Below are positions 38,304 through 49,513 of a DNA stretch of 64,000 nucleotides, one piece after another. Within the stretch, counting starts at the first letter, position 1, and each line of letters starts with the position of its first letter. A program made the position numbers and the translations under genes. The DNA is from Alcanivorax sp. DP30 (lineage in GTDB: Bacteria > Pseudomonadota > Gammaproteobacteria > Pseudomonadales > Alcanivoracaceae): positions 599,863 to 663,862 of the forward strand of contig NZ_WTUY01000005.1 of assembly GCF_009882945.1 (NCBI RefSeq). Reading direction: 5' to 3'. The notes under the pieces are model-generated. The model saw only the letters and a list, made by a program, of their open reading frames with translations, did no database searches and was not told the DNA's origin.

Positions 38304-39290
38304 TCAGGTGCATTCTGCGCGGCTCTGATCCAGCTTGCAGCGGATCTTGCGTAGCAGGGTCAGCATGTCCGGATCATAGTAACCCTCGATCTTAAGCTGG
38401 TTACGGGCTTCCTGCATCAGGACTTCATATTCGCCTTTGTCAGCATCGGGGATTTCTACCCACCACTTGGAATCCACCTTGGATTCTTCCTTCTTGAGCT
38501 GATCCAGAATACGGTCGAGATTGTTGTAGAAGTACTCGCGGGACTTTTGCGCCACTTCCGGGGTGAAGGCGTCTTTCTTGGCGATGAGCTGGATGGTCAG
38601 CTGTACCAGAGGGTAGTTGATGATGCCGCCGTCAGGGGACAGGCCCTTGTACAGCTCCAGTGCCTCATAGGCCGCCAGGGGAGCGGCAATTACATCGACC
38701 ACGCCATTGTTGAACTTGGTGGAGAAGTTGGTGATGTCGGAGGCTACCGGGGTAGCGCCTACCTGCGAAACCAGCTTGGCCTGGGTTTCATCATATTCCA
38801 GCACCGCAACACGCTTGCCTGCTGCCTTGGCGAGGGAATTGACCTCTTTATCGTTCACAAAAATATAGGCAGCACCCGCCGGGGCAATGCCCATTATCTG
38901 ATAAGAGCCCTGTGACAGTTTGGGCGCGCTCTGCGGCATGGAGAGCACCTGCAGGGCGATGCGCATGTGATCCAGAGTGGGGATGGAGCCGATGGAGTCC
39001 ACGGTGCCGGCAAATTTGTTAAAGCCGCGCCCGCGAATACCGGTCACCAGTGCAGCGTCACAGATGCCGGCTTTCAGGTCTTCGGCAGCGATGGCTTCGT
39101 TGGTGTAGGGAATCAGTTCTGCTTCCAGGCCCCAGCCCAGAGCAGCGGTTTGCCAGTCTTTCATGGCGCCCATCATGGGGCCAACATTACCGACGATGTC
39201 GAATACACAAATTTTGGTCGGTGCGGCCTGGGCCGTCACGGAGGTCGCCAGGGCACAAGCCGCCAGAGCGGCAGTCATCAGCTTCTTCAT
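38304..39290 (-). CDS. TRAP/TPAT-type solute-binding protein, paralog 1 (short form)
   Basis: Secreted binding protein of 328 residues with a signal peptide (cleaved near residue 22). It is one of five paralogs here. Shared signatures are KICVFDIVGN at the mature N-terminus, EDLKAGICDAALVTGIRGRGFNKF, GIAPAGAAYIFVNDKEV, KRVAVLEYDETQAKLVSQVGATPV, YEALELYKGLSPDGGIINYPL, and a C-terminal IRCKLDQSRAEC. The cysteines in ICVF and GICD and the C-terminal CK...EC pair recur in the other complete paralogs. It resembles P-components of TRAP transporters and is usually called putative solute-binding protein (DUF6091-like). It lies alone, 16 kb from the permease. Confidence 0.8.
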   Translation of the reverse strand: MKKLMTAALAACALATSVTAQAAPTKICVFDIVGNVGPMMGAMKDWQTAALGWGLEAELIPYTNEAIAAEDLKAGICDAALVTGIRGRGFNKFAGTVDSIGSIPTLDHMRIALQVLSMPQSAPKLSQGSYQIMGIAPAGAAYIFVNDKEVNSLAKAAGKRVAVLEYDETQAKLVSQVGATPVASDITNFSTKFNNGVVDVIAAPLAAYEALELYKGLSPDGGIINYPLVQLTIQLIAKKDAFTPEVAQKSREYFYNNLDRILDQLKKEESKVDSKWWVEIPDADKGEYEVLMQEARNQLKIEGYYDPDMLTLLRKIRCKLDQSRAECT

Positions 39291-39418: not shown

Positions 39419-40432
39419 CTATTGACGGTGGGCGCGGCGAACCTCTCCCGGGGTTTTGCCTGTCCAGGAGCGGTAGGCCTTGCTGAAGCTGGCCTGATCG
39501 CTGTAGCCGATATGTTCGGCAATTTTCTCAAGCGGCATGTCTGTATCTTGCAGGAACCGGGTTGCAAAGGTCTCTCGGACCTGGTTCCGAATGGTGCTGA
39601 ATCCGTATCCCGCCAGATTCAGATGCCGGCGTACCGAGCGGGAGCTCATGCCCAGTTGTTCGGCAACCCGTTCCAGGCTGCTGCTGCGCCCCGGTGAGGT
39701 CATGATCTGGTGACGCACCTGGGTCACCACTTTGAGGCTGTCGTTGCACTTCAGCTGCTCCTGGCTGCGGGCGGCAGCCAGATAATTGGCCATGCTGGCA
39801 TCATCATCACGCATCTGCCTGCCTACAAGCGGCATCAATACCCGGTTTTGTGGTTGATCAAACCGCATGGTCCCGCCTTTTGCCAATTGTTGCCATTGCA
39901 GTGATTTACCCGGGCAGGGGAAATCAAATTCGAAGGTGAAACGTTTGCTCACCAGCGACGCCAGCGAATAGATGCTGCCCATGTAGATGCCAGCGATGGT
40001 GGGTTTGAGATCACCGAATTCCCAGTTGTCATGGAGTTGGATGGAAATCTCTTCGCCGTTGGCCTTGATTTCCATGTCCATCAACGGGAGGGATACCCGT
40101 AGGTACTGCACCACCATATTGACCAGATGACGGTAATTTTTTTGCCTCAGAAGCGCGAAGCCGAATAAACCATGACCATGGAGATCCAGTTCCTGCCCGA
40201 AGCGGAAACCGGTGGTCTCATCATTGAGTAAACGGTTGCCGTGGCGAAGGATTTGGGAAACCTGCTTGATGGAGAGAAAACCTTCGGGATTATCAAGAAT
40301 GGCCGGATCGATGTCGGCATTTTCGAGCACTATCGTTCCATTGATTCCGTGTTTTTGTACAAACCGCAAATACCGGCGGGCATAGCGAACTGAAATGATG
40401 GGAACGTTCAGTGCCATTCCACTGTTTTTCAT
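39419..40432 (-). CDS. AraC-family transcriptional regulator
   Basis: Regulator of 337 residues: an N-terminal Arabinose_bd-type (OruR/ArgR-like) ligand domain to about residue 230, and a C-terminal AraC domain with LERVAEQLGMSSRSVRRHLN and the second helix-turn-helix IAEHIGYSDQASFSKAYRSWTG. ATG 40432 has CAGG about 8 nt upstream; an in-frame ATG at 40417 is an alternative. It is divergent from the GNAT-GH3-RND operon, and a perfect palindrome lies between them, so it likely controls that operon. Confidence 0.88.
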   Translation of the reverse strand: MKNSGMALNVPIISVRYARRYLRFVQKHGINGTIVLENADIDPAILDNPEGFLSIKQVSQILRHGNRLLNDETTGFRFGQELDLHGHGLFGFALLRQKNYRHLVNMVVQYLRVSLPLMDMEIKANGEEISIQLHDNWEFGDLKPTIAGIYMGSIYSLASLVSKRFTFEFDFPCPGKSLQWQQLAKGGTMRFDQPQNRVLMPLVGRQMRDDDASMANYLAAARSQEQLKCNDSLKVVTQVRHQIMTSPGRSSSLERVAEQLGMSSRSVRRHLNLAGYGFSTIRNQVRETFATRFLQDTDMPLEKIAEHIGYSDQASFSKAYRSWTGKTPGEVRRAHRQ

Positions 40433-40475
40433 TATCTGTACCTGGCCTTTGGCCTAATTCCTGTTGTTATTATGG

Positions 40476-40493
40476 GTGAGAACAGGTTCTCAC
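40476..40493. promoter_or_regulatory. Palindrome GTGAGAAC-AG-GTTCTCAC, candidate operator
   Basis: A perfect 8-bp inverted repeat with a 2-bp centre, between the AraC gene and the divergent GH3 operon. Its position suits shared control of both transcripts. Confidence 0.55.
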
Positions 40494-40527
40494 TATCTCG
40501 CGTATTAATGAAAAAAGAATCATTGTT

Positions 40528-40550
40528 GCCATTTTTAACAAAAAAATGGC
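40528..40550. repeat. AT-rich hairpin in the GH3 operon leader region
   Basis: GCCATTTTT, 5-nt loop, AAAAATGGC, about 85 bp before the first gene. It could be part of the promoter or a 5' leader structure; no T-tail on the coding strand. Confidence 0.4.
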
Positions 40551-40633
40551 CGCTTTAACCATTATGTAATTGGGGGGAGGTCGCGATTATGTGCGCCGCT
40601 TTTAACGAACAAAAATAAACACGGAGCGGAGAA

Positions 40634-41410
40634 ATGAAAAGGGAAAAATCGGCTTCTTTGAAGGCGCGCTATTTGCCTATTTCTAAAGTATCAGTTCTTG
40701 ATATGCGACGAATGTATGAGATCTATTCTGGCTACTACGAAAATATAAGTCTGGATCTTTTCTGTCGTGACATGTCCGAGAAAGATGGTGTGTTCCTCGT
40801 GGCAGAGCGTTCCACCAAGCGCGTGGTTGGTTTTTCCACCATGAAAACCCTGGATATGAAGGTGGATGGTCGCCCTGTTCGAGGAATATTCAGCGGCGAT
40901 ACCATCATCGAAAAAGAGTATTGGGGTAGCAAGGCCCTACACGTCGCATTTTTCTTTCGTGTTATTCGTGAAAAACTTCGTCACCCGGTTCGCCCGCTAT
41001 TCTGGTTGTTGATTTCGAAGGGCTATAAAACCTATTTGCTGATGGCGAATAATTTTCACAATTATTACCCGAATATTGAGGGTGACTGTGAAAAGCTGGC
41101 AGGGTTGGTCGATAATTATTGTGACACCCTTTTTCGCGACTATTACTGCTCGGAGAGGAAACTTCTGGATTTCGGTTCCGGTTATACCTACCTGAAATCT
41201 GATGTGGCCGGAATTACCGATGAAATGCGAAAAAATAATGAAAAAATTCAATTTTTTGAGTCGAGGAATCCAAGCTGGCAGCGGGGCACTGAATTGCCCT
41301 GTATTGGGGAAGTCAGCTATTCGCTGATGCTTGGTTACCCCATGGCGCTTTGGCTTAAGTTACGACGTAAAAGCGCGCAGGTCGCTGCACCAGTGATTGC
41401 CAATAACTAA
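40634..41410 (+). CDS. GNAT-like acyltransferase, first gene of the GH3 cluster
   Basis: Protein of 258 residues with a GNAT-like acetyltransferase look: FLVAERSTKRVVGFSTMKTLDM (strands beta2-3), GIFSGDTIIEKEYWGSKALHVAFFFRVI (beta4 and CoA-loop region), LFWLLISKGYKTYLLMANNFHNYYP (beta5). It probably transfers an acyl group to an amine or hydroxyl; the substrate is unknown. It is visibly less GC-rich than the genes around it, with AT-rich codons, suggesting a separate origin. It is followed after 16 bp by the GH3-like gene and preceded by a long AT-rich leader. The fold assignment is moderate. Confidence 0.65.
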   Translation: MKREKSASLKARYLPISKVSVLDMRRMYEIYSGYYENISLDLFCRDMSEKDGVFLVAERSTKRVVGFSTMKTLDMKVDGRPVRGIFSGDTIIEKEYWGSKALHVAFFFRVIREKLRHPVRPLFWLLISKGYKTYLLMANNFHNYYPNIEGDCEKLAGLVDNYCDTLFRDYYCSERKLLDFGSGYTYLKSDVAGITDEMRKNNEKIQFFESRNPSWQRGTELPCIGEVSYSLMLGYPMALWLKLRRKSAQVAAPVIANN

Positions 41411-41426
41411 AAGAAAAAGGCAGGCC

Positions 41427-43040
41427 ATGTTTGGACATCGATTGCTGAAATTGGCCACGTGGCCAGGGGAATCCCGATTTTCCGCTTCGCGCCGTTCTCT
41501 TGAGCAGGTGCAGCGGCAAAAGCTGGCTCAGTTGCTGACGCGGGTAGCGCGCCAGCCGTTTGGTCAGGCAACGGGGCTTGAGGCGGGAATGAGTTGGGAG
41601 CAGTTTGCCGCTACCCAACCCATCACGGATTATGATCATTGGCGGCAGGCTATTGAGGGGCACCGCCTACAAGGCCAGCCTGGCCTGATTGATTCTCCCC
41701 TGGTACGTTTTCAGCCCACCAGTGGTTCCACGTCTGCGATCAAGTGGGTTCCCTACACCAAACACTTTCTGGGTGAGCTTGATAACGCCATCAGTCCCTG
41801 GGTGGTTGATTTATATCGCCAGTATCCGGGCCTGATGAAAGGGCGTCACTACTGGTCCATGTCCTGGGTACCTACAGCCTTGCGTGCCAGCATGCGCGAG
41901 GATATCAATGATGATCTGCAGCTGATGTCATTTGGAAAACGGCTGGTGGCGGGCGCCACCCAGGCGGTACCCCAGAATGTTTCTCTGGCCAGCAGTTCTG
42001 ATGACTCCATGTTTGCCACCCTGGCTTATCTGGCTGCGGACCCTTCTCTGTCCATGATTTCTGTGTGGAGCCCCACCTTTGGGCTGGGCATGCTCAAATC
42101 CCTGTCCCACTGGCGTGAAGAACTGGCGGAAGCTCTTGCCACTGGGCATTGGGGGCAACGCATGCTGGGCGTGAATGCGCTGCCATGTCCGGTTTCTCAC
42201 CGTGCTGCGCAGTTGTTGCGTGAGTGGAACGGTGTTCTCGATTCCGAATTCTTCATTGCACTGTGGCCTTCCCTGGCCCTGGTGAGCGCCTGGGACACGG
42301 CCGCATCCGCGCCCTGGGCCAAACAGCTGCATCGTTTATTGCCGCAGGCGGCATTCCAGGGCAAGGGGCTATGGGCCACGGAGGGCGTCGTGACGTTGCC
42401 ATATCAGGGGCAGCAGACGCTGGCATACCGTAGCCATGTCTACGAATTTCAGGATCCGGATGACGGCTGTATCTACGCGCCCTGGGAGCTGGAAAAAGGG
42501 CAGGTGGTGATGCCGTTACTGAGCACCGGTAGCGGTCTGCTTCGTTATCAGCTCAAGGATCTGGTCCGGGTGGATGGTTTTAATGAAGGGGTGCCTGTGC
42601 TCACCTTCCTTGGCCGTTCAGGAACCACGGATCTGGTGGGCGAAAAAATGACCGCCCCGGTGATGGAAGAAGCCGTGACTCAACTGGTTCTGCCGGATGA
42701 TCTGACCACAGTCTGCACTGTGGCAGTGGATGACGCAGGGAACGGGATCCCGGGTTATATCCTCTTACTGGAAGGTACGCCGGGTGCGGGCGATGCGAGC
42801 CTTGCCAAACAACTGGATGGGATTTTACAGCGCCACTTTCATTATCAGCTGGCTAGAAATCTGGGGCAGTTGGCGCCGTTACGTTGTGTGGTTCACCCGG
42901 CCATGCGCGAACGGTATCTACATCAGTGTCTTCAGCGCGGCATGATTGAAGGCAACATCAAGATCGAATCCCTGCAGTACTGGAACGGCGAAGTCCCGTT
43001 GTGGATGACCCGTGCAGCCGAAGGGCAGGGGGTCTTGTGA
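41427..43040 (+). CDS. GH3-family acyl-adenylating enzyme (acyl-acid amido synthetase-like)
   Basis: Protein of 537 residues resembling the GH3 family, ANL-type enzymes that adenylate a carboxylic acid and in plants join jasmonate or auxin to amino acids. Motifs in order: FQPTSGSTSAIKWVPYT (phosphate loop), GLWATEGVVTLPY (acyl-binding and adenylate motif), STGSGLLRYQLKDLVRV (the third ATP motif), FLGRSGTTDLVGEKM, and the C-terminal lobe. The start is ATG 41427 (MFGHRLLKL). Its stop overlaps the next GNAT gene (GTGA). Bacterial GH3 proteins are mostly uncharacterised. No carrier protein is nearby, so the product would be a free conjugate. Confidence 0.85.
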   Translation: MFGHRLLKLATWPGESRFSASRRSLEQVQRQKLAQLLTRVARQPFGQATGLEAGMSWEQFAATQPITDYDHWRQAIEGHRLQGQPGLIDSPLVRFQPTSGSTSAIKWVPYTKHFLGELDNAISPWVVDLYRQYPGLMKGRHYWSMSWVPTALRASMREDINDDLQLMSFGKRLVAGATQAVPQNVSLASSSDDSMFATLAYLAADPSLSMISVWSPTFGLGMLKSLSHWREELAEALATGHWGQRMLGVNALPCPVSHRAAQLLREWNGVLDSEFFIALWPSLALVSAWDTAASAPWAKQLHRLLPQAAFQGKGLWATEGVVTLPYQGQQTLAYRSHVYEFQDPDDGCIYAPWELEKGQVVMPLLSTGSGLLRYQLKDLVRVDGFNEGVPVLTFLGRSGTTDLVGEKMTAPVMEEAVTQLVLPDDLTTVCTVAVDDAGNGIPGYILLLEGTPGAGDASLAKQLDGILQRHFHYQLARNLGQLAPLRCVVHPAMRERYLHQCLQRGMIEGNIKIESLQYWNGEVPLWMTRAAEGQGVL

Positions 43041-44131
43041 GTTATCAGATTCGCCCCGCACGGCAAGAGGATAACGCGGCCATTCTGGCGCTGCTTCAGG
43101 GAACCCCGCAGCCCGGGGCGGTAACGCTGAATTTCGAGCGTAACCCGGATTATTTTCGCGGTGCGAAAGTTGCCTGTGAACAGCCGGATGTGTGGGTGGC
43201 GGAAGCCCGTGATGCGCCGGGAAAAGTGGGTGCAGTCTATAACGTGGGCTGGCGCCATGTGTGGATCAATGGCGAAGTGAGGCCGATCCGTTACGCCCAT
43301 GATCTGCGTATCGCCCCGGAATTTCGCAATGGCATGATTCTCCATCGCATGTTTCGACACCTGCGCAAGCAGCTGGCCGAAGGGGAGTGGATGCAGACAA
43401 CGGTACTGCGCGATAACCAGGCTTCACTGGCCACGGTTGCCAGTGGCCGCGCCGGCCTGCCGGTGTACTACCCGGCCGGCACTATCGAAACCAGCATGCT
43501 TTACACACGCCAGCGTTATCCACGTCTGCCGGCTGATACCAGCATCCGCCAAAGTGGTTCTTCGGATCTGCCTGAAATAGCTGCGTTACTCAAACGTGAG
43601 GGCAGAAAAAAACAGTTCTTTCCCTATTGGGATGTGAATCGTGTGCATGGCGACGAGTATTGCTTTGGACTCAATGCCTCTAGTTTTTTGCTGTTGCGTA
43701 TAGGGGGGGAGCTCAAGGGTGTGTTGGGTTTCTGGGATCAGAAGCCAATCAAGCAAACCCGTGTGCTTGGTTATGCCCGTGGCATGGGCGTGATGCGTCA
43801 TCTCTACAACACCCATAGTGTGCTTCGTGGTGGCATGCGTTTGCCGCCGGCGGGTGGCGTGCTTTCCTATCTCTCACTGCATAGTTTGATCGTCGCTAAC
43901 GATGATCCGGACCTGTTGCGTTTGCTGATGGATTACGCAGTTGCCTATTTCCATGGCCGTTATGACGCCTTGATCTGTGGATTTTTCCAACAGGACCCAC
44001 TGGCTGGTGTGGCGGCGCGCTATCGTCGCCGGCTGCTGCTAAGCGAGCATTTTCTGGTCAGTTATGACGGGGATCCGCGGGGGGCGCTTGACGGAGAACG
44101 CCCCTGGTACGTGGAGGTTGCCCGTCTGTGA
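43037..44131 (+). CDS. GNAT acyltransferase, second of the GH3 cluster
   Basis: Protein of 364 residues. The first 150 residues are a GNAT domain: YQIRPARQEDNAAILALLQG, VWVAEARDAPGKVGAVYNVG, AHDLRIAPEFRNGMILHRMFRHL (the CoA-binding R/Q-x-x-G/A-like loop is RNGMIL). The remaining half (about 185-364) looks like a second, degenerate GNAT-type domain (IRQSGSSDLPEIAALLKREG). The start is GTG 43037, with AGGGGG upstream; it overlaps GH3 by 4 bp and the next gene by 4 bp. The substrate is unknown. Confidence 0.8.
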   Translation: MSYQIRPARQEDNAAILALLQGTPQPGAVTLNFERNPDYFRGAKVACEQPDVWVAEARDAPGKVGAVYNVGWRHVWINGEVRPIRYAHDLRIAPEFRNGMILHRMFRHLRKQLAEGEWMQTTVLRDNQASLATVASGRAGLPVYYPAGTIETSMLYTRQRYPRLPADTSIRQSGSSDLPEIAALLKREGRKKQFFPYWDVNRVHGDEYCFGLNASSFLLLRIGGELKGVLGFWDQKPIKQTRVLGYARGMGVMRHLYNTHSVLRGGMRLPPAGGVLSYLSLHSLIVANDDPDLLRLLMDYAVAYFHGRYDALICGFFQQDPLAGVAARYRRRLLLSEHFLVSYDGDPRGALDGERPWYVEVARL

Positions 44132-45084
44132 ATACTGGCATCATCGATTATATCGGTATGTGGTATCAGGCCCGTGCGAAGCTGGGCGTGGATGACCGTA
44201 TCGATTTCATGTTTGACGATCCTGCGACGGGCAAGCGCACCAATGTGATTTTGCGGCACCGTGATTACGATGGGGTGGGTGGCATTCTGGCCTCCGCCCG
44301 TCAGGTCGGCATGATCGAGCCGCTATTGCCCTCCGGGAAGCATCGCAAGCCACCCTCTTTCTGGCGGCGTTGGCAGCGAAAACCATTGAGCAGAGAAGCC
44401 GAAGCGCCGCAGTGGGAACATTTTGAAACGCAACAGGCGCCTTCCGTAGAGCCTCTGATGGGCTGGTTGACACGGGCTGAAACTCAAGGACTTCTGCGCT
44501 ATGCCGACAGCCAGCAAGTGTCCCTGAACAGCCTGTTGCTGCTGGCTCTGCACCGGGCTGTTTGCGACACCCTGATGCAGGGAAGGGCAGTGGGTAGCTG
44601 GTGTTTTCCCGTCAATATGCGTAATGCCATCACGATTCCCCGCCAGGAAATGAACTTGTCCAGCGCGTTTTATCTGACTGTTTCGCCGGATGATGCACCT
44701 GCCGACATTGACCGGGCCATTCGCGCCAATCTGAAAGCCAATGTGCACTGGCGCTTTTGGCATCTGGCGCGTGTTGGCCGGTTTATCGGTCAGCGCGGGG
44801 TGGATTGGTTGTGCGCGCGGATGCTTAACGGGAAACCCCATTGCGGTTCCTTTTCCAGCCTTGGCGAATGGCAGATGGATTTTATCTCCGCGGGGATGGC
44901 GCCAGATACGACGTTCTGTTGTTGTGGCCCCGGAAGCCCCAACCATCCAGTGGCCAACGGCGTCATGATCGTCAACGGACGCCTGACACTGGCGTTACGG
45001 CTGCACCCTTCTCTTGGTGCAGATCAAGCCCGGGCAGAACAGTGCCTGCAACACTGGAAAAATGGCCTGTTGGAGTGGATATGA
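44128..45084 (+). CDS. CAT/condensation-superfamily acyltransferase-like protein
   Basis: Protein of 318 residues. The segment VILRHRDYDGVGGIL carries an HxxxDG motif (H-R-D-Y-D-G), the catalytic signature of chloramphenicol acetyltransferase-like enzymes, condensation domains and wax ester synthases; the first His of the fuller HHxxxDG is replaced by Arg. GSWCFPVNMRNAITIPRQEMN resembles the xxPVxxR region of the same fold. The length of 318 is shorter than the usual 430-450, so part of the fold may be missing. It could join an acyl group to an amine or alcohol. It starts at GTG 44128 and overlaps both neighbours. Confidence 0.65.
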   Translation: MNTGIIDYIGMWYQARAKLGVDDRIDFMFDDPATGKRTNVILRHRDYDGVGGILASARQVGMIEPLLPSGKHRKPPSFWRRWQRKPLSREAEAPQWEHFETQQAPSVEPLMGWLTRAETQGLLRYADSQQVSLNSLLLLALHRAVCDTLMQGRAVGSWCFPVNMRNAITIPRQEMNLSSAFYLTVSPDDAPADIDRAIRANLKANVHWRFWHLARVGRFIGQRGVDWLCARMLNGKPHCGSFSSLGEWQMDFISAGMAPDTTFCCCGPGSPNHPVANGVMIVNGRLTLALRLHPSLGADQARAEQCLQHWKNGLLEWI

Positions 45085-46235
45085 CTTTTCCGAGCTTGCG
45101 TACCCTGGTTGCGCTGATCGCAGCGGCCGCAGTCACAGTGGCGGTGGCGATGCTTTACCTGGTACCTCCGGCACAGCCGGCCCAAAACGTACGCGACAAT
45201 ATTCTGGCCCTGGACACCTGGAAGGTAAGTTGGAGTGACCAGATTATTCCGGTTTATACCCAGGGTCAGGTTTCCGCCCGTCACCAGCTGCCGCTGAGTC
45301 TGGAAGTGTCTGGTCGGGTTGAAGAAGTGGCTCCGGCCTTTGCGGATGGTGGCCGGGTGATGGCCGGTGAAATCCTGTTGCGGCTTGACCCGGAGCCCTT
45401 CGAGCTGGAGGTGATCACGCAGCAGAACGCGGTGCAGGCAGCCCGTCTGCACCTGGCAGAAACCCGCGCTCGCGCCCGAGTCGCCGGCAGCGCCAGTCGC
45501 TCGTCGGCGCTGGGACGTTTTGAACCGCAAATGGATGAAGCGCGCAGCCGTCTGGCAGCGGCCCAGGCGGGATTACGCCAGGCCCAGCGGCAACTGGAGC
45601 AGACCGAGCTGGTGGCTGCGATCAGTGGGCGTCTCAAGGGCGTGCAAGTGATGCCAGGTCAGCATTTACAGGCTGGTACTGTGCTCGGGCAGCTCTATCA
45701 GGAAGATCTGGTAGAGGTACGGCTGCCGGTACGTGATGACTGGCTGGCCTTGCTGGGTATTGTCCCCGGTGATGACAGCACTCTGGAACCGGTGCAGGCC
45801 CGCTTGAGTGGGCGCTTTGCCGGTCGGACTGGCGAATGGCAGGGTAAGGTGGTGCGTCGCGAAGGGGGGCTTAACCGTAACCAGATGATGCATTTGATCG
45901 TCCAGGTGGCCAATCATGAACAGGATCTGCCGCTGGAACCGGGAGTGCTGGTACAGGCCGAGCTGCGCGGAGCGCCGACTCAGGCTGTGGCGGTGTTGCC
46001 GCGTTCCGCCCAGGCTGGAGAAGACAGCATCTGGGTGCTGGACGATGAACAGCGCCTGCGTCGACAGACCGTTGTTGTGCTGCATCATGATCGTGACAAC
46101 CTTTATGTCAACGATGGCGTCACCAGCTCCACCCGTGCCGTGCTGGCCGGGGATCTGCAATTGCTGGAAGGCATGCGCATCAACCCCAACCCGCCGGCGC
46201 CGGGACTGGCCAACATGAGCGGACCCCTGCAATGA
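45081..46235 (+). CDS. RND efflux periplasmic adaptor subunit (MFP)
   Basis: Membrane fusion protein of 384 residues. One N-terminal membrane segment (about 8-28) anchors it; then the barrel-sandwich half SLEVSGRVEEVAPAFADGGRV, a coiled-coil hairpin (VITQQNAVQAARLHLAETRA and SRLAAAQAGLRQAQRQLEQTE), the second lipoyl half ISGRLKGVQVMPGQHLQAG, and the beta-barrel. ATG 45081 overlaps the preceding stop by 4 bp. It pairs with the next RND pump. No outer-membrane channel gene is adjacent, so TolC from elsewhere is assumed. Confidence 0.92.
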   Translation: MTFPSLRTLVALIAAAAVTVAVAMLYLVPPAQPAQNVRDNILALDTWKVSWSDQIIPVYTQGQVSARHQLPLSLEVSGRVEEVAPAFADGGRVMAGEILLRLDPEPFELEVITQQNAVQAARLHLAETRARARVAGSASRSSALGRFEPQMDEARSRLAAAQAGLRQAQRQLEQTELVAAISGRLKGVQVMPGQHLQAGTVLGQLYQEDLVEVRLPVRDDWLALLGIVPGDDSTLEPVQARLSGRFAGRTGEWQGKVVRREGGLNRNQMMHLIVQVANHEQDLPLEPGVLVQAELRGAPTQAVAVLPRSAQAGEDSIWVLDDEQRLRRQTVVVLHHDRDNLYVNDGVTSSTRAVLAGDLQLLEGMRINPNPPAPGLANMSGPLQ

Positions 46236-49200
46236 ACCGTACCATCGCCTGGTTTGCAGGCAACAGCGCAGTAGCCAACCTGCTGATGATCACGTTGTTG
46301 CTGGCGGGCATAGTGGCGATTCCCATGACCCGACAGGAGACCCTGCCGAATGTGCCGCTGGATCGTATTGGTATCTACGTGGCCTGGCCCCAGGCCACCC
46401 CGGACAATGTGGAATCCCTGCTGTGCGGGCCGGTGGAAACAGCCCTTGATGACGTGGAAGGCGCCACCGACCTGATCAGTGAATCCCGTGAAGGATTGTG
46501 CTCTGTGCAGCTGGATGTGCTGGAAGGGCATGATACCCGCAAGGTCCTGGAGCTGGTGCGCTCTCGTCTGGATGCTCTGGATAACCTGCCAAAGGGGGCC
46601 GGACGGGCCCGGGTTCAGGAATTGATTGTTCGCAACCGGGTAGTGCGATTGATCCTCAGTGGTTCCCTGTCCCGCCATGACATTTATGAATTGGCCCAGC
46701 AGTCAAGGAGGGAGCTGCTGAATGATCCGGCAGTGTCCAGTGTCGACATTGAAAACCTGCCTGAGCGGGAGATGTCCATTGAGGTGCAGCGTGATGACCT
46801 TTATCGCTATCAGCTGACTCTGGATGGGATTGCCGCGGCGGCCAGTCAAAGTGTGCAGCGGACTGCCGGCGGGGTGTTGCGCAGTGACCGTGGTGACTGG
46901 ATGCTGCAGACCGGTCAGCAGCCAGGGGATGCCCAGGCCTATGAGCAGCTCGTGATCAGGCAGTCGGAGCAGGGAGATCTGCTGCGGCTGGGGCAGGTAG
47001 CAACGGTAAAAGACGGTTTCTCCCGCGATAATCTTGCCGCCTGGCTGAATGGGCATCCGGCGGTAGCGCTGGATGTGTACCGGGTCGGTGAGCAGAACGT
47101 GCTGGAAGTGGCCGATGCCGTGAAGGCCTGGGTGAACAATACGGAGCTGCCGAGGGGCGTCAGTGTTCGTATCTGGAGCGATGATGCGCGTCAGTTTCAG
47201 GAGCGCTCCAATCTGCTCTGGCGCAATGCCCTGCAAGGGCTGTTTTTGCTCACCATCATGCTGTCGATTTTCCTGACACTGCGCCTGGCCGGCTGGGTCG
47301 CACTGGGAATTCCTGTGTGTATGTTGGGCGCCTGTGCCCTGCTGCCCTTGCTGGGCGAATCCTTCAATACCATTTCGCTGTTTGCGTTCATTCTGGTGTT
47401 GGGCATCGTGGTGGATGATGCGGTTATCGTGGGAGAAAGTATTGATCAACAGCGTCGGCTCGGCTTGCCGGGCCCCCAGGCCGCGGTGACTGGCGCGCAA
47501 AAAGTTGCCAAACCGATTCTGTTTGCGGTCCTGACCACCTTGTTTGCATTCGCGCCCTTGCTGTTTCTGCCCGGACCGGAAGGGGCATTGATGCGGGTTA
47601 TTCCCATCGTGTCCATTGCCATTCTGGTGCTTTCGTTGCTGGAGTCATTGTGGATTTTGCCCGCGCACTTGAGTCACAGCCGTTCCCCGCGGGGGATCTG
47701 GCTCAAGTCTGAAAAACTGTCAAACCGGATCAACGATCGTCTGGAGCACTGGCTGGAAGAGAAGGCGCGGCCGTTGCTGAGAACGGCGCTGCGTTGGCGC
47801 TATGTCCTGGTTGTTGTCTTTGTCGGGCTATTCATGTTCTGCAGTGCGTTGGTAAGCAGCGGCTGGCTGACCATGGTGCTGTTTTCGCGGGTGGAAGGGA
47901 ATCGCGTTATGGCGGAAGTGGTCTTTCCCCAAGGCACGGGAGAAGCCCGACTCTACCGGGAGCTGCAATCCCTGGAGGGTTCTGCGCGGGCGTTGGCGGT
48001 AGCGCTTGAAGATGAACACGCGCCGATCACGGTGGAGGCAGTTTTTGCCGAGCAAGGCGTGCGCCAGAAAATCTCCAATGCCCGTGATCCAGCGGCGAGA
48101 TTCCGGGTGCGAGTAACACTGGCAGTGGAGGGCGATACCGGGGCCATGCCACCACGTGAACTTGCCGCTCGCTGGCGGGAATTGCACGGGTCTATTGCCG
48201 ATGCGCTGTCCGTGAAATTTCACGCCAGCCTGATGCAGGTGAAGCCGGATATTCATGTCAATATTTTCCATCCGGATATGGCGGTATTGCAGCGATTGAG
48301 CGATCAGGCCGCGCTGTCGCTGTCGCGCATGGACGGTGTGCATGAGGTTGCCAATAATCTCTACGCCAAACGGACCCTGGTGGACATTGCATTGCGCGAG
48401 CAGGGAGAGCTGGCCGGTTTACGTGCTGACCAGGTGGGTCTTCAAGTCCGCAATGCCTTCCACGGCATCGAACTGGATCGCTGGTTCGAACAGGATCAGG
48501 AAGTGCCGGTGATGCTGCGCCTTGCCGGGCAGGACAGTCAGCAACTGACGGATCTGGAGCGCTTGCCGTTGCAGCTCCCCAACGGTGACATGACGGTACT
48601 GGCGGCGGTGGCAGATCTGGAGCGCCGTCAGGTGCCAGCCATGATCAGTCACTATGATGGCCGACGCAGCGCCACAGTCAGCGCTTTTGTGGATGATCAT
48701 GTGACAACGCCGGGCCAGGTCATGGCAGTTCTGCGTGAGAGCGTCCTGGATCCCATGGTCGAGGTGGATGAACGTGCTGGCTGGACCGTTGCCGGCAAGC
48801 CCGCCGGGATCAAAGATTTTCTCGATTATCTTTCTGTCAGTTATCTCATTGCATTGGCGGCCATTTTCTTCCTTCTTACTGTTCTTTTTGGCGGTTATGG
48901 CCAACCGTTGCTGGTCATGGCAGCTATTCCGTTCGGCATGGTGGGAGCCTTCATGGGCCACTTTTTCCTCGGTTACAGCCTGACGTTGTGGTCTCTGGTG
49001 GGGGTGATTGCCGTGAGTGGTGTGGTGGTGAATGATAACCTGGTGTTGATTGATGCAATCAACACTGCCCGTGACAGGGGGTTGGCATTGCGCCAGGCGG
49101 TGGTGGAGGGTGTCAGTGGCCGGTTGCGGCCGGTCATGCTGACGTCCATTACCACTTTTGCCGGCGTTGCCCCGTTGATGTTCGAGACCAGTGTGCAGGC

Positions 49201-49513
49201 CCGTTTCCTGATTCCCATGGCCGTGTCCCTGGCTTTCGGGGTGATGTTTGCCACTCTGGTCAGCCTGTTACTGGTGCCTTGCCTGCTGGTGGTCGGGCAT
49301 GATGTAACCGTGGCCTGGCAACGCTGGCAGGCCCGCTGGCGAGCGCCGGAAGCATCAGAACTGGATAGCGTGGATGTGGCCTACGAACGCGGCCAGTTCA
49401 CCGCCTGGTGGAGCGCAAGCAATCCCTATGAAGACCCGGTACTGCGCTCCGCCTGGGAAGCCGGGCGGCAGGATCATGGCAGCCGTGAAGAGGGCGAGTT
49501 GCCGCATCCGTAG
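46232..49513 (+). CDS. RND-family efflux permease
   Basis: Inner-membrane pump of 1093 residues of the AcrB/HAE superfamily. A first helix (about 12-32), a large periplasmic loop, helices 2-6 (about 330-490) including GIVVDDAVIVGESIDQQ with the proton-relay aspartates of TM4, and the mirrored second half (about 865-1040) with GVIAVSGVVVNDNLVLIDAIN. The C-terminal 45 residues are a soluble tail (VAYERGQFTAWWSASNPYEDP) longer than usual. It overlaps the adaptor by 4 bp, and being last in the GH3 operon suggests it exports the pathway product. Confidence 0.93.
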   Translation: MNRTIAWFAGNSAVANLLMITLLLAGIVAIPMTRQETLPNVPLDRIGIYVAWPQATPDNVESLLCGPVETALDDVEGATDLISESREGLCSVQLDVLEGHDTRKVLELVRSRLDALDNLPKGAGRARVQELIVRNRVVRLILSGSLSRHDIYELAQQSRRELLNDPAVSSVDIENLPEREMSIEVQRDDLYRYQLTLDGIAAAASQSVQRTAGGVLRSDRGDWMLQTGQQPGDAQAYEQLVIRQSEQGDLLRLGQVATVKDGFSRDNLAAWLNGHPAVALDVYRVGEQNVLEVADAVKAWVNNTELPRGVSVRIWSDDARQFQERSNLLWRNALQGLFLLTIMLSIFLTLRLAGWVALGIPVCMLGACALLPLLGESFNTISLFAFILVLGIVVDDAVIVGESIDQQRRLGLPGPQAAVTGAQKVAKPILFAVLTTLFAFAPLLFLPGPEGALMRVIPIVSIAILVLSLLESLWILPAHLSHSRSPRGIWLKSEKLSNRINDRLEHWLEEKARPLLRTALRWRYVLVVVFVGLFMFCSALVSSGWLTMVLFSRVEGNRVMAEVVFPQGTGEARLYRELQSLEGSARALAVALEDEHAPITVEAVFAEQGVRQKISNARDPAARFRVRVTLAVEGDTGAMPPRELAARWRELHGSIADALSVKFHASLMQVKPDIHVNIFHPDMAVLQRLSDQAALSLSRMDGVHEVANNLYAKRTLVDIALREQGELAGLRADQVGLQVRNAFHGIELDRWFEQDQEVPVMLRLAGQDSQQLTDLERLPLQLPNGDMTVLAAVADLERRQVPAMISHYDGRRSATVSAFVDDHVTTPGQVMAVLRESVLDPMVEVDERAGWTVAGKPAGIKDFLDYLSVSYLIALAAIFFLLTVLFGGYGQPLLVMAAIPFGMVGAFMGHFFLGYSLTLWSLVGVIAVSGVVVNDNLVLIDAINTARDRGLALRQAVVEGVSGRLRPVMLTSITTFAGVAPLMFETSVQARFLIPMAVSLAFGVMFATLVSLLLVPCLLVVGHDVTVAWQRWQARWRAPEASELDSVDVAYERGQFTAWWSASNPYEDPVLRSAWEAGRQDHGSREEGELPHP

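Follow-up and report, generated by a model that had tools for sequence, protein, structure and literature searches.

Organization of the locus

The window analyzed here is a stretch of 64,000 nucleotides of Alcanivorax sp. DP30, whose genome measures 3.6 Mb. Between positions 40634 and 49513, it carries six genes on the forward strand, opposite a divergent gene of the AraC type. In order, the six encode a first GNAT protein (GNAT1), a GH3-family enzyme, a second GNAT protein (GNAT2), an enzyme of the condensation/PapA fold with a length of 318 amino acids (aa), a resistance–nodulation–division (RND) adaptor, and an RND pump (Table 1). All seven reading frames are confirmed in the window sequence. 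We give about an even chance to the reading that these genes form an inducible operon that makes and exports a small amphiphilic acyl conjugate, with a lipoamino acid as the likeliest product.

GNAT1 and GH3 are spaced by 16 bases, and the remaining four operon junctions are overlaps of 4 bases each. This arrangement suggests translational coupling across the junctions and agrees with an earlier annotation of this DNA made from its letters alone (the sequence-only reading), which had described six adjoining or overlapping genes and a divergent AraC gene. The GH3 gene starts at the ATG at 41427, as judged by the starts of its relatives, while the listed frame begins with a TTG at 41397. The GNAT2 gene starts at a GTG that overlaps the GH3 stop; the mechanically called start at 43001 lies too early compared with relatives. 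The nearest named matches of the GH3 protein come from Alcanivorax and further Alcanivoracaceae, at no more than 75% identity.

Table 1. Genes and intergenic repeats of the GH3 locus in the window
Feature	Position	Strand	Basis
AraC-family regulator, PF12625 (Arabinose_bd) N-terminal domain, divergent from operon	39419-40432	-	Pfam/NCBIfam profiles
Inverted repeat GTGAGAAC-2-GTTCTCAC, only partly conserved in relatives	40476-40493		
Candidate operator, perfect 9-bp inverted repeat GCCATTTTT-5-AAAAATGGC, divergent intergenic region	40528-40550		
GNAT1, 258 aa, predicted GNAT fold, no named family	40634-41410	+	Predicted structure
GH3-family adenylating enzyme, 537 aa	41427-43040	+	Pfam and plant GH3 structure matches
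GNAT2, 364 aa, probable GNAT (possibly tandem)	43037-44131	+	Profile link and linkage
Condensation/PapA-fold enzyme, 318 aa, HxxxDG (H44, D48, G49)	44128-45084	+	Motif and predicted fold
RND periplasmic adaptor (membrane fusion protein), 384 aa	45081-46235	+	RND_mfp
RND transporter permease, 1093 aa	46232-49513	+	ACR_tran

Linkage of the two GNAT genes with GH3

In a class sample of 369 Gammaproteobacteria genomes, GNAT1 is found in 9, GNAT2 in 8, a GH3 of any kind in 19, and the gene of the 318-aa protein in one. All nine GNAT1 genomes and all eight GNAT2 genomes have a GH3 gene, and neither GNAT occurs without one (hypergeometric P of 3e-13 for GNAT1 and 1e-11 for GNAT2, with phylogeny ignored); the linkage of both genes with GH3 is far beyond chance. 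GNAT2 lies on the GH3 contig at a gap of less than 3 kb in 8/8 genomes. GNAT1 adjoins GH3 in seven of the nine and presumably in one more across a contig break (G167); the picture is loosened by G301, where GNAT1 lies on a contig other than that of GH3. Further variations are a GNAT2 on the opposite strand (G210), two B12-radical SAM genes that separate GH3 from GNAT2 (G154 and G301), and a genome with GNAT1 and GH3 in which GNAT2 is not detected and the contig ends 1.3 kb past GH3 (G001).

Both GNATs are missing from ten of the GH3 genomes in the class sample, whose GH3s branch outside the GNAT-linked clade. This clade was defined in a midpoint-rooted FastTree tree of 30 GH3s, namely the 9 GNAT-linked and 10 unlinked ones of the class sample, those of 10 named loci (L059 being a fragment), and the second GH3 of G407. 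All GNAT-linked GH3s (19/19) group together in a single clade with a support of 0.992, and the 11 unlinked GH3s lie outside it. As a control, 14 well-known genomes were searched for the GH3 family, and one, Bacteroides ihuae, was positive.

A scan based on GH3 yielded 53 loci—22 of the Alcanivoracaceae type and 31 of the Aquabacterium/Burkholderiales type, with L005, L010, L022, L034, and L041 assigned by similarity. Of these 53, 51 show all three genes of the GNAT1–GH3–GNAT2 trio; the remaining two, L035 and L044, are truncated by contig ends. GNAT2 of L007 is likewise cut by a contig end, and GH3 of L049 aligns part way only, in one segment. The alignments hold 19 of 65 loci for GNAT1, 20 of 71 for GNAT2, 13 of 20 for the condensation-fold enzyme, and 20 of 96 GH3 matches. 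The sequence-only reading had expected the six genes to recur together and had named GH3 genes without the partner genes as evidence to the contrary. Recurrence is seen in Alcanivoracaceae. The trio occurs without the 318-aa, adaptor, and RND genes in the stretches examined of all 31 Burkholderiales-type loci, and seven other class-sample genomes have the trio without the 318-aa gene and with no RND gene in the stretch examined. This rules out the six genes as one indivisible unit: the true core is the GNAT1–GH3–GNAT2 trio, and the condensation-fold enzyme and the RND pump are its Alcanivoracaceae partners.

The GH3 enzyme

The GH3 protein exceeds the Pfam cut-off of 23.6 with the N, M, and C domains of the GH3 family (121, 40, and 27 bits, respectively), which bears out its earlier assignment to the adenylating enzymes. 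The residues T98, G100, K106, E319, D378, R397, K407, and K512 are invariant in all 20 aligned proteins, each of them GNAT-linked, and belong to motifs that we take to serve ATP binding. Profile comparison matches the protein to solved plant GH3 structures with a best E of 2.9e-26, the benzoate–glutamate ligase GH3.12 among them. Plant GH3 enzymes adenylate an acid, then hand the acyl group to an amine, and act in hormone homeostasis. The family and the three-domain layout are common to the operon enzyme and the plant amido synthetases AtGH3.15, GH3.5/3.6, GH3.12, and JAR1; the plant enzymes have, to our knowledge, neither operon partners nor an exporter.

The statement of the sequence-only reading that bacterial GH3 enzymes are largely uncharacterized is partly outdated by OlsH of Singulisphaera acidiphila, which was characterized in 2025 (PMC12493201). 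As described in the accessible part of that report, OlsH joins a free fatty acid and ornithine using ATP, without acyl carrier protein (ACP) or coenzyme A (CoA), and the product is a membrane ornithine lipid. Both systems have a bacterial GH3-family enzyme that, in the case of OlsH, joins acid and amine with ATP, and an O-acyltransferase step comes after the GH3 step in Singulisphaera (PMC12493201). They differ in that OlsI is an alpha/beta hydrolase, and neither a GNAT pair nor an RND pump is mentioned for OlsH/OlsI in the accessible part (PMC12493201); no OlsI-like alpha/beta hydrolase is present among the seven operon proteins, as no hydrolase family is matched at E≤1 in Pfam. As judged by sequence comparison, OlsH is the nearest characterized bacterial GH3 found but belongs to a different subfamily.

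GNAT1 and GNAT2

Neither GNAT1 nor GNAT2 has a Pfam or NCBIfam match at E≤1. The predicted structure of GNAT1 has a mean predicted local distance difference test score (pLDDT) of 88, and its top matches are GNAT structures, the best being SpNatD with a Z of 12.3 and 3.1 Å over 155 residues. Histone, N-terminal, and LasI-type GNATs—the latter being N-acyl-homoserine lactone (AHL) synthases—tie as structural matches. The GNAT fold of the model is clear, but the fold indicates no substrate. Sequence matches of GNAT1 in the PDB to plant N-glycosidases (E of 0.02 and up) were discarded as chance. Profile comparison aligns the first half of GNAT2 with GNAT1 (hhalign E 6e-6, probability 85%). In addition, GNAT2 has five weak PDB matches with a best E of 0.086: two named BH1408 protein and three acetyltransferases by name, namely Ta0821 and two AAC proteins, whose abbreviation we presume to stand for an acetyltransferase. 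GNAT2 is, by these profile matches, probably a GNAT and possibly a tandem one.

Acyl transfer to amino acids is carried out by GNAT-type N-acyl amino acid synthases (PMC11631085 and PMC6669457, accessible parts), the first of these sources naming GNAT enzymes for it, and OlsB can be grouped with them (PMC12493201, accessible part). Compared with these enzymes, GNAT1 and GNAT2 fit no named family and occur in the class sample only in GH3 genomes.

The condensation-fold protein

In Pfam, the 318-aa protein is closest to PapA_C, but the match is weak (E 3e-5) and its 23.9 bits stay below the cut-off of 30. Membership in PapA5 was rejected, the NCBIfam PapA5 model giving 15.5 bits compared with a cut-off of 396. 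The HxxxDG motif at residues 44–49 is invariant in 13/13 aligned proteins. The predicted structure (pLDDT 88) features the condensation/PapA fold, with AzeD as the top match (Z 24.3, 3.9 Å, 302 residues) and further matches to the TRI3 acetyltransferase, C domains of nonribosomal peptide synthetases (NRPSs), wax ester synthases, and PapA5 at Z 15 to 21. Hence, fold and motif place the modeled protein in the condensation/PapA/CAT superfamily, and the CAT/condensation-like enzyme of the sequence-only reading stands. Fold and motif are common to this protein and to PapA5 and other condensation-fold enzymes such as AzeD and the wax ester synthases; it differs from them by its length of 318 aa and its shortened N-terminal part. 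The shortening follows from the motif, which lies at 158–163 in a 469-residue condensation-like frame of Burkholderiales and about 110 residues nearer to the N terminus here. The two proteins may be homologous, on the basis of a weak profile match (hhalign E 1.9e-5, probability 78%). The top PDB sequence match of the 318-aa profile, the repeat protein MpAFP, was discarded as chance.

The exporter and conservation in Alcanivoracaceae

The operon features both parts by which an RND efflux system is recognized, an ACR_tran permease and an RND_mfp adaptor; the latter matches HlyD_3 and RND_mfp (111 bits, cut-off 94.9). Of the 46 Alcanivoracaceae genomes in a family sample, 34 have a GH3 of nearly full length and one has a GH3 fragment; some of the 12 GH3-negative genomes are incomplete assemblies. 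The 318-aa gene is found in 34/34 GH3-positive and 0/12 other genomes, barring a partial match in G399 (E 2e-5). The earlier claim that the RND pump is tied to this locus is backed by the same sample: homologues with at least 51% identity occur in 30 of the 34 GH3-positive genomes and in none of the 12 others, among matches at E≤1e-100. The Fisher P values are 3e-11 for the 318-aa gene and 5e-8 for the pump, with shared descent ignored. One stop lies inside the GH3 match in G375, G381, and G392 and inside the RND match of G375, and in the fragmented assembly G379 the GH3, condensation-fold, and RND matches are on separate contigs.

The full set of seven genes, arranged as in the window, is kept in 15 of the 22 Alcanivoracaceae-type loci; one of these 15 has its pump cut by a contig end, and in four the AraC protein is only 33–36% identical. 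Two other loci are contig-cut, two lack the 318-aa gene at the locus, and three of the Alloalcanivorax type have a 32–33%-identical pump convergent with the 318-aa gene. More distant condensation-fold genes, unlinked to GH3, are found in two family genomes of the genus g277: G407 has GH3 on contig C2 and a copy on C39 (141 bits), and G408 has GH3 on C10 and copies on C11 and C12 (144 and 209 bits). These unlinked copies could be paralogues. A GH3 identity of about 51% would place L039 and L041 in g277 as well, and because this genus keeps a distant unlinked copy, it is doubted that genomes of the L039/L041 type truly lack a condensation-fold enzyme. As a separate observation, G407 carries another GH3 on contig C37 (L104), a distant one at about 24% identity, and less than 1 kb from it an RND-like permease that is likewise distant (about 22% identity).

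Of the 16 congeners of Alcanivorax sp. DP30 in the sample, 15 retain the operon GH3. In G369, an Alcanivorax genome of 3,120,143 bp, the approximately 10.5 kb that hold all seven genes in L047 have shrunk to approximately 0.8 kb, and the deletion scar (L101:8917-9694) retains a 75-aa GH3 remnant and pieces of AraC. This deletion reads as the loss of a functional unit.

These distributions bear on an alternative in which the product is a structural outer-membrane aminolipid instead of a secreted surfactant, moved across the envelope by the RND pump in the manner of MmpL or HpnN. PapA partners MmpL pumps in mycobacteria, and PapA_C is the family that the 318-aa protein matches best. The membrane ornithine lipid made by OlsH is a further point in its favor (PMC12493201, accessible part). 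However, the pump scores 445 bits with ACR_tran compared with 30 bits with MMPL in Pfam, and the absence of a full GH3 from 12/46 family genomes—some of them incomplete, one the scarred Alcanivorax—argues that the product is not an essential membrane lipid. We regard this alternative as improbable.

Exchange of the surroundings in other lineages

In 12 of the 31 Burkholderiales-type loci, an HlyD adaptor and an ABC-2 permease follow straight after GNAT2. A condensation/PapA-like gene, the 469-residue frame, lies on the other strand within the stretch in 26 of them; three of these 26 proteins were scanned against Pfam, and the alignment of this frame (A5) covers 11 of the 26 loci. This linkage may go back to a single event because the Burkholderiales-type loci share neighbors. 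In L064, L065, and L066, the trio lies between a Rieske oxygenase and a fused RnfD-like membrane/FG-GAP/ASPIC protein, accompanied in L064 and L066 by fatty-acid desaturase-, SnoaL-, or AurF-like genes; L068 has Rieske and desaturase genes, too. As judged by gene content, the surroundings in L064 to L066 look like an undescribed biosynthetic cluster. B12-binding radical SAM genes directly follow GH3 in three loci: two genes in L067 and L068, and one before the contig end in L092. The trio thus has the look of a biosynthetic module to which differing sets of tailoring and export genes are added, and the exporter swaps across lineages appear to preserve the theme of export.

Such mosaic neighborhoods with Rieske, AurF-like, B12-radical SAM, SnoaL, and desaturase genes, together with the swapping of exporters and the about equal resemblance of GNAT1 to acetyl-, N-terminal, and AHL-synthase GNATs, would also suit a small-molecule antibiotic, a metallophore, or a signal. 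The RND pump would then serve export or self-protection, and the acyl part need not be long. We consider this unlikely. The retention of the operon in 15/16 congeners is broader than expected for an antibiotic cluster, and a metallophore is disfavored by the seven locus proteins matching no metal-related family in Pfam.

The tailoring oxygenases and radical SAM enzymes of the other trio clusters suggest biosynthesis and speak against a further alternative, detoxification, in which GH3 would link amino acids to toxic acids of aromatic or hydrocarbon origin, much as plant GH3.12 acts on benzoates, and the conjugates would leave the cell through the RND pump. Detoxification also leaves unexplained why two GNATs and a condensation-fold enzyme are inherited together. 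An efflux-type pump and an AraC switch within the locus and the presence of GH3.12 among the solved relatives are in keeping with it, as is the hydrocarbon-degrading lifestyle of Alcanivorax (PMC5174103, accessible part); we hold it to be quite unlikely overall.

Proposed function of the operon

The make-and-export proposal starts from the observed gene order, domain identities, and near-strict co-occurrence and from the folds predicted for GNAT1 and the condensation-fold protein; substrates, step order, product, inducer, and export would be as follows. GH3 would bind a carboxylic acid together with ATP, form the acyl-adenylate, and pass the acyl group on to an amine. The acid is probably one of the fatty acids that abound in cells grown on alkanes, and the amine is probably an amino acid. 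GNAT1 and GNAT2 would attach further acyl groups to the same scaffold or transfer them there, with acyl-CoA or acyl-ACP as donors. In Alcanivoracaceae, the HxxxDG condensation-fold enzyme would carry out the finishing reaction, which may be an O-acylation or else a related step of esterification, dehydration, or cyclization, and the adaptor and RND pump would carry it out of the cell. The divergent AraC-type regulator would switch the operon via the conserved palindrome, perhaps on an aliphatic ligand. The pathway had been called carrier-free. This holds for the operon, since no carrier-protein, NRPS, or polyketide synthase domain exceeds its Pfam cut-off in the seven locus proteins and the protein of the neighboring AdeT gene, but not beyond it, because the GNATs may draw acyl-CoA or acyl-ACP from general metabolism.

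Several points weigh against this proposal. The acids of plant GH3 enzymes are auxin, benzoate, and jasmonate, and a fatty-acid substrate is thus not assured. GH3 falls outside the OlsH family (13.2 bits with NCBIfam NF052613 compared with an equivalog cut-off of 620), and its amino acid specificity is not readable from the sequence. The sequence-only reading had the acyltransferases build an amide or ester; for the 318-aa protein this is not assured, given that the closest fold match of its model, AzeD, is a dehydratase. The solved relatives of the pump are multidrug efflux pumps by name; four GH3-positive family genomes (G385, G386, G396, and G397) have only a 33%-identical pump adjoining the 318-aa gene, and 19 of the 31 Burkholderiales-type loci have no exporter beside the trio with the models tried. 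The varied neighbors in other trio clusters—Rieske, radical SAM, desaturase, and AurF-type genes—imply that products may differ widely between lineages. Related species are non-independent samples, and the proposal is drawn from sequence and predicted structure. As stated in the accessible part of a 2024 aminolipid review, proline has yet to be reported from membrane aminolipids, although N-acyl prolines seem common (PMC11631085).

A lipoamino acid product would meet a gap in the literature on Alcanivorax. The locus of A. hongdengensis A-11-3 (L011) has all seven genes, and the trio and the 318-aa gene are present in G386, which we take to be A. dieselolei B5; the scarred genome G369 is presumably A. 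borkumensis SK2. Lipoamino acid and lipopeptide surfactants are reported from marine Alcanivorax with their biosynthesis undescribed (2019 review PMC6669457, accessible part). A. dieselolei yields a proline lipid, A. hongdengensis a lipopeptide whose structure is not established, and A. borkumensis a glucose lipid, according to the accessible parts of two sources (PMC6669457, PMC5174103). The host group is the same, and the product class of the proline lipid and lipopeptide surfactants fits GH3 chemistry (PMC6669457, PMC5174103); the accessible parts tie no gene to these surfactants, the link to the operon is proposed from gene presence alone, and the pattern of operon and surfactant covers three species, far too few for a test. 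The operon possibly comprises the missing genes for these lipoamino acid surfactants.

A wider claim is offered tentatively, and we rather doubt it: the trio would be an undescribed transferable module for making lipoamino acids or short lipopeptides with neither NRPSs nor carrier proteins, fitted per lineage with RND or ABC-2 and HlyD exporters and with condensation-fold, Rieske, B12-radical SAM, or desaturase tailoring. In Alcanivoracaceae, it would be the proline-lipid/lipopeptide pathway, and its loss would accompany the other kind of surfactant in A. borkumensis.

The individual families are known, whereas an operon of this kind, with a presumed role in amino-acyl lipid synthesis and export, appears not to have been described previously. 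In line with the sequence-only reading, no published account of the operon is found among the literature matches listed, with most subscription journals outside the coverage. Two protein groups without a Pfam or NCBIfam match gain a pathway as near-strict partners of one GH3 clade. OlsH being the only characterized bacterial GH3 among the literature matches listed, the operon adds a second well-bounded and testable system, and its presence in oil-degrading Alcanivorax makes the open question of lipoamino acid surfactant biosynthesis directly testable (PMC6669457, accessible part).

Regulator, intergenic region, and neighboring gene

The AraC-type protein matches HTH_18 and Arabinose_bd in Pfam. 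It belongs to the broad family only: it lies far under the NCBIfam cut-offs of QhpR (130 bits, cut-off 250) and of CypR (NF053784; 104.8 bits, cut-off 500), and membership in either was rejected. CypR is an alkane regulator, and an aliphatic inducer is plausible for the protein encoded here. In the divergent intergenic region, most columns of the perfect 9-bp repeat are invariant in 12 aligned Alcanivorax-type regions, and the repeat is the sole such site in the window at up to two mismatches, with 0.01 expected. This palindrome is a putative operator to which the AraC-type protein would bind. Promoter and terminator scans gave counts on a par with shuffled sequence (7 compared with 5.0 and 11 compared with 12.1, respectively).

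Just past the AraC gene, on the minus strand at 38304-39290, lies a gene for a solute-binding protein of the AdeT1/2 type (PF19582, 315 bits). It is not detected in 6 of the 22 Alcanivoracaceae-type loci, lies several kilobases off in three (63–65% identity), and stands beside AraC in the remaining 13 (77–92% identity).

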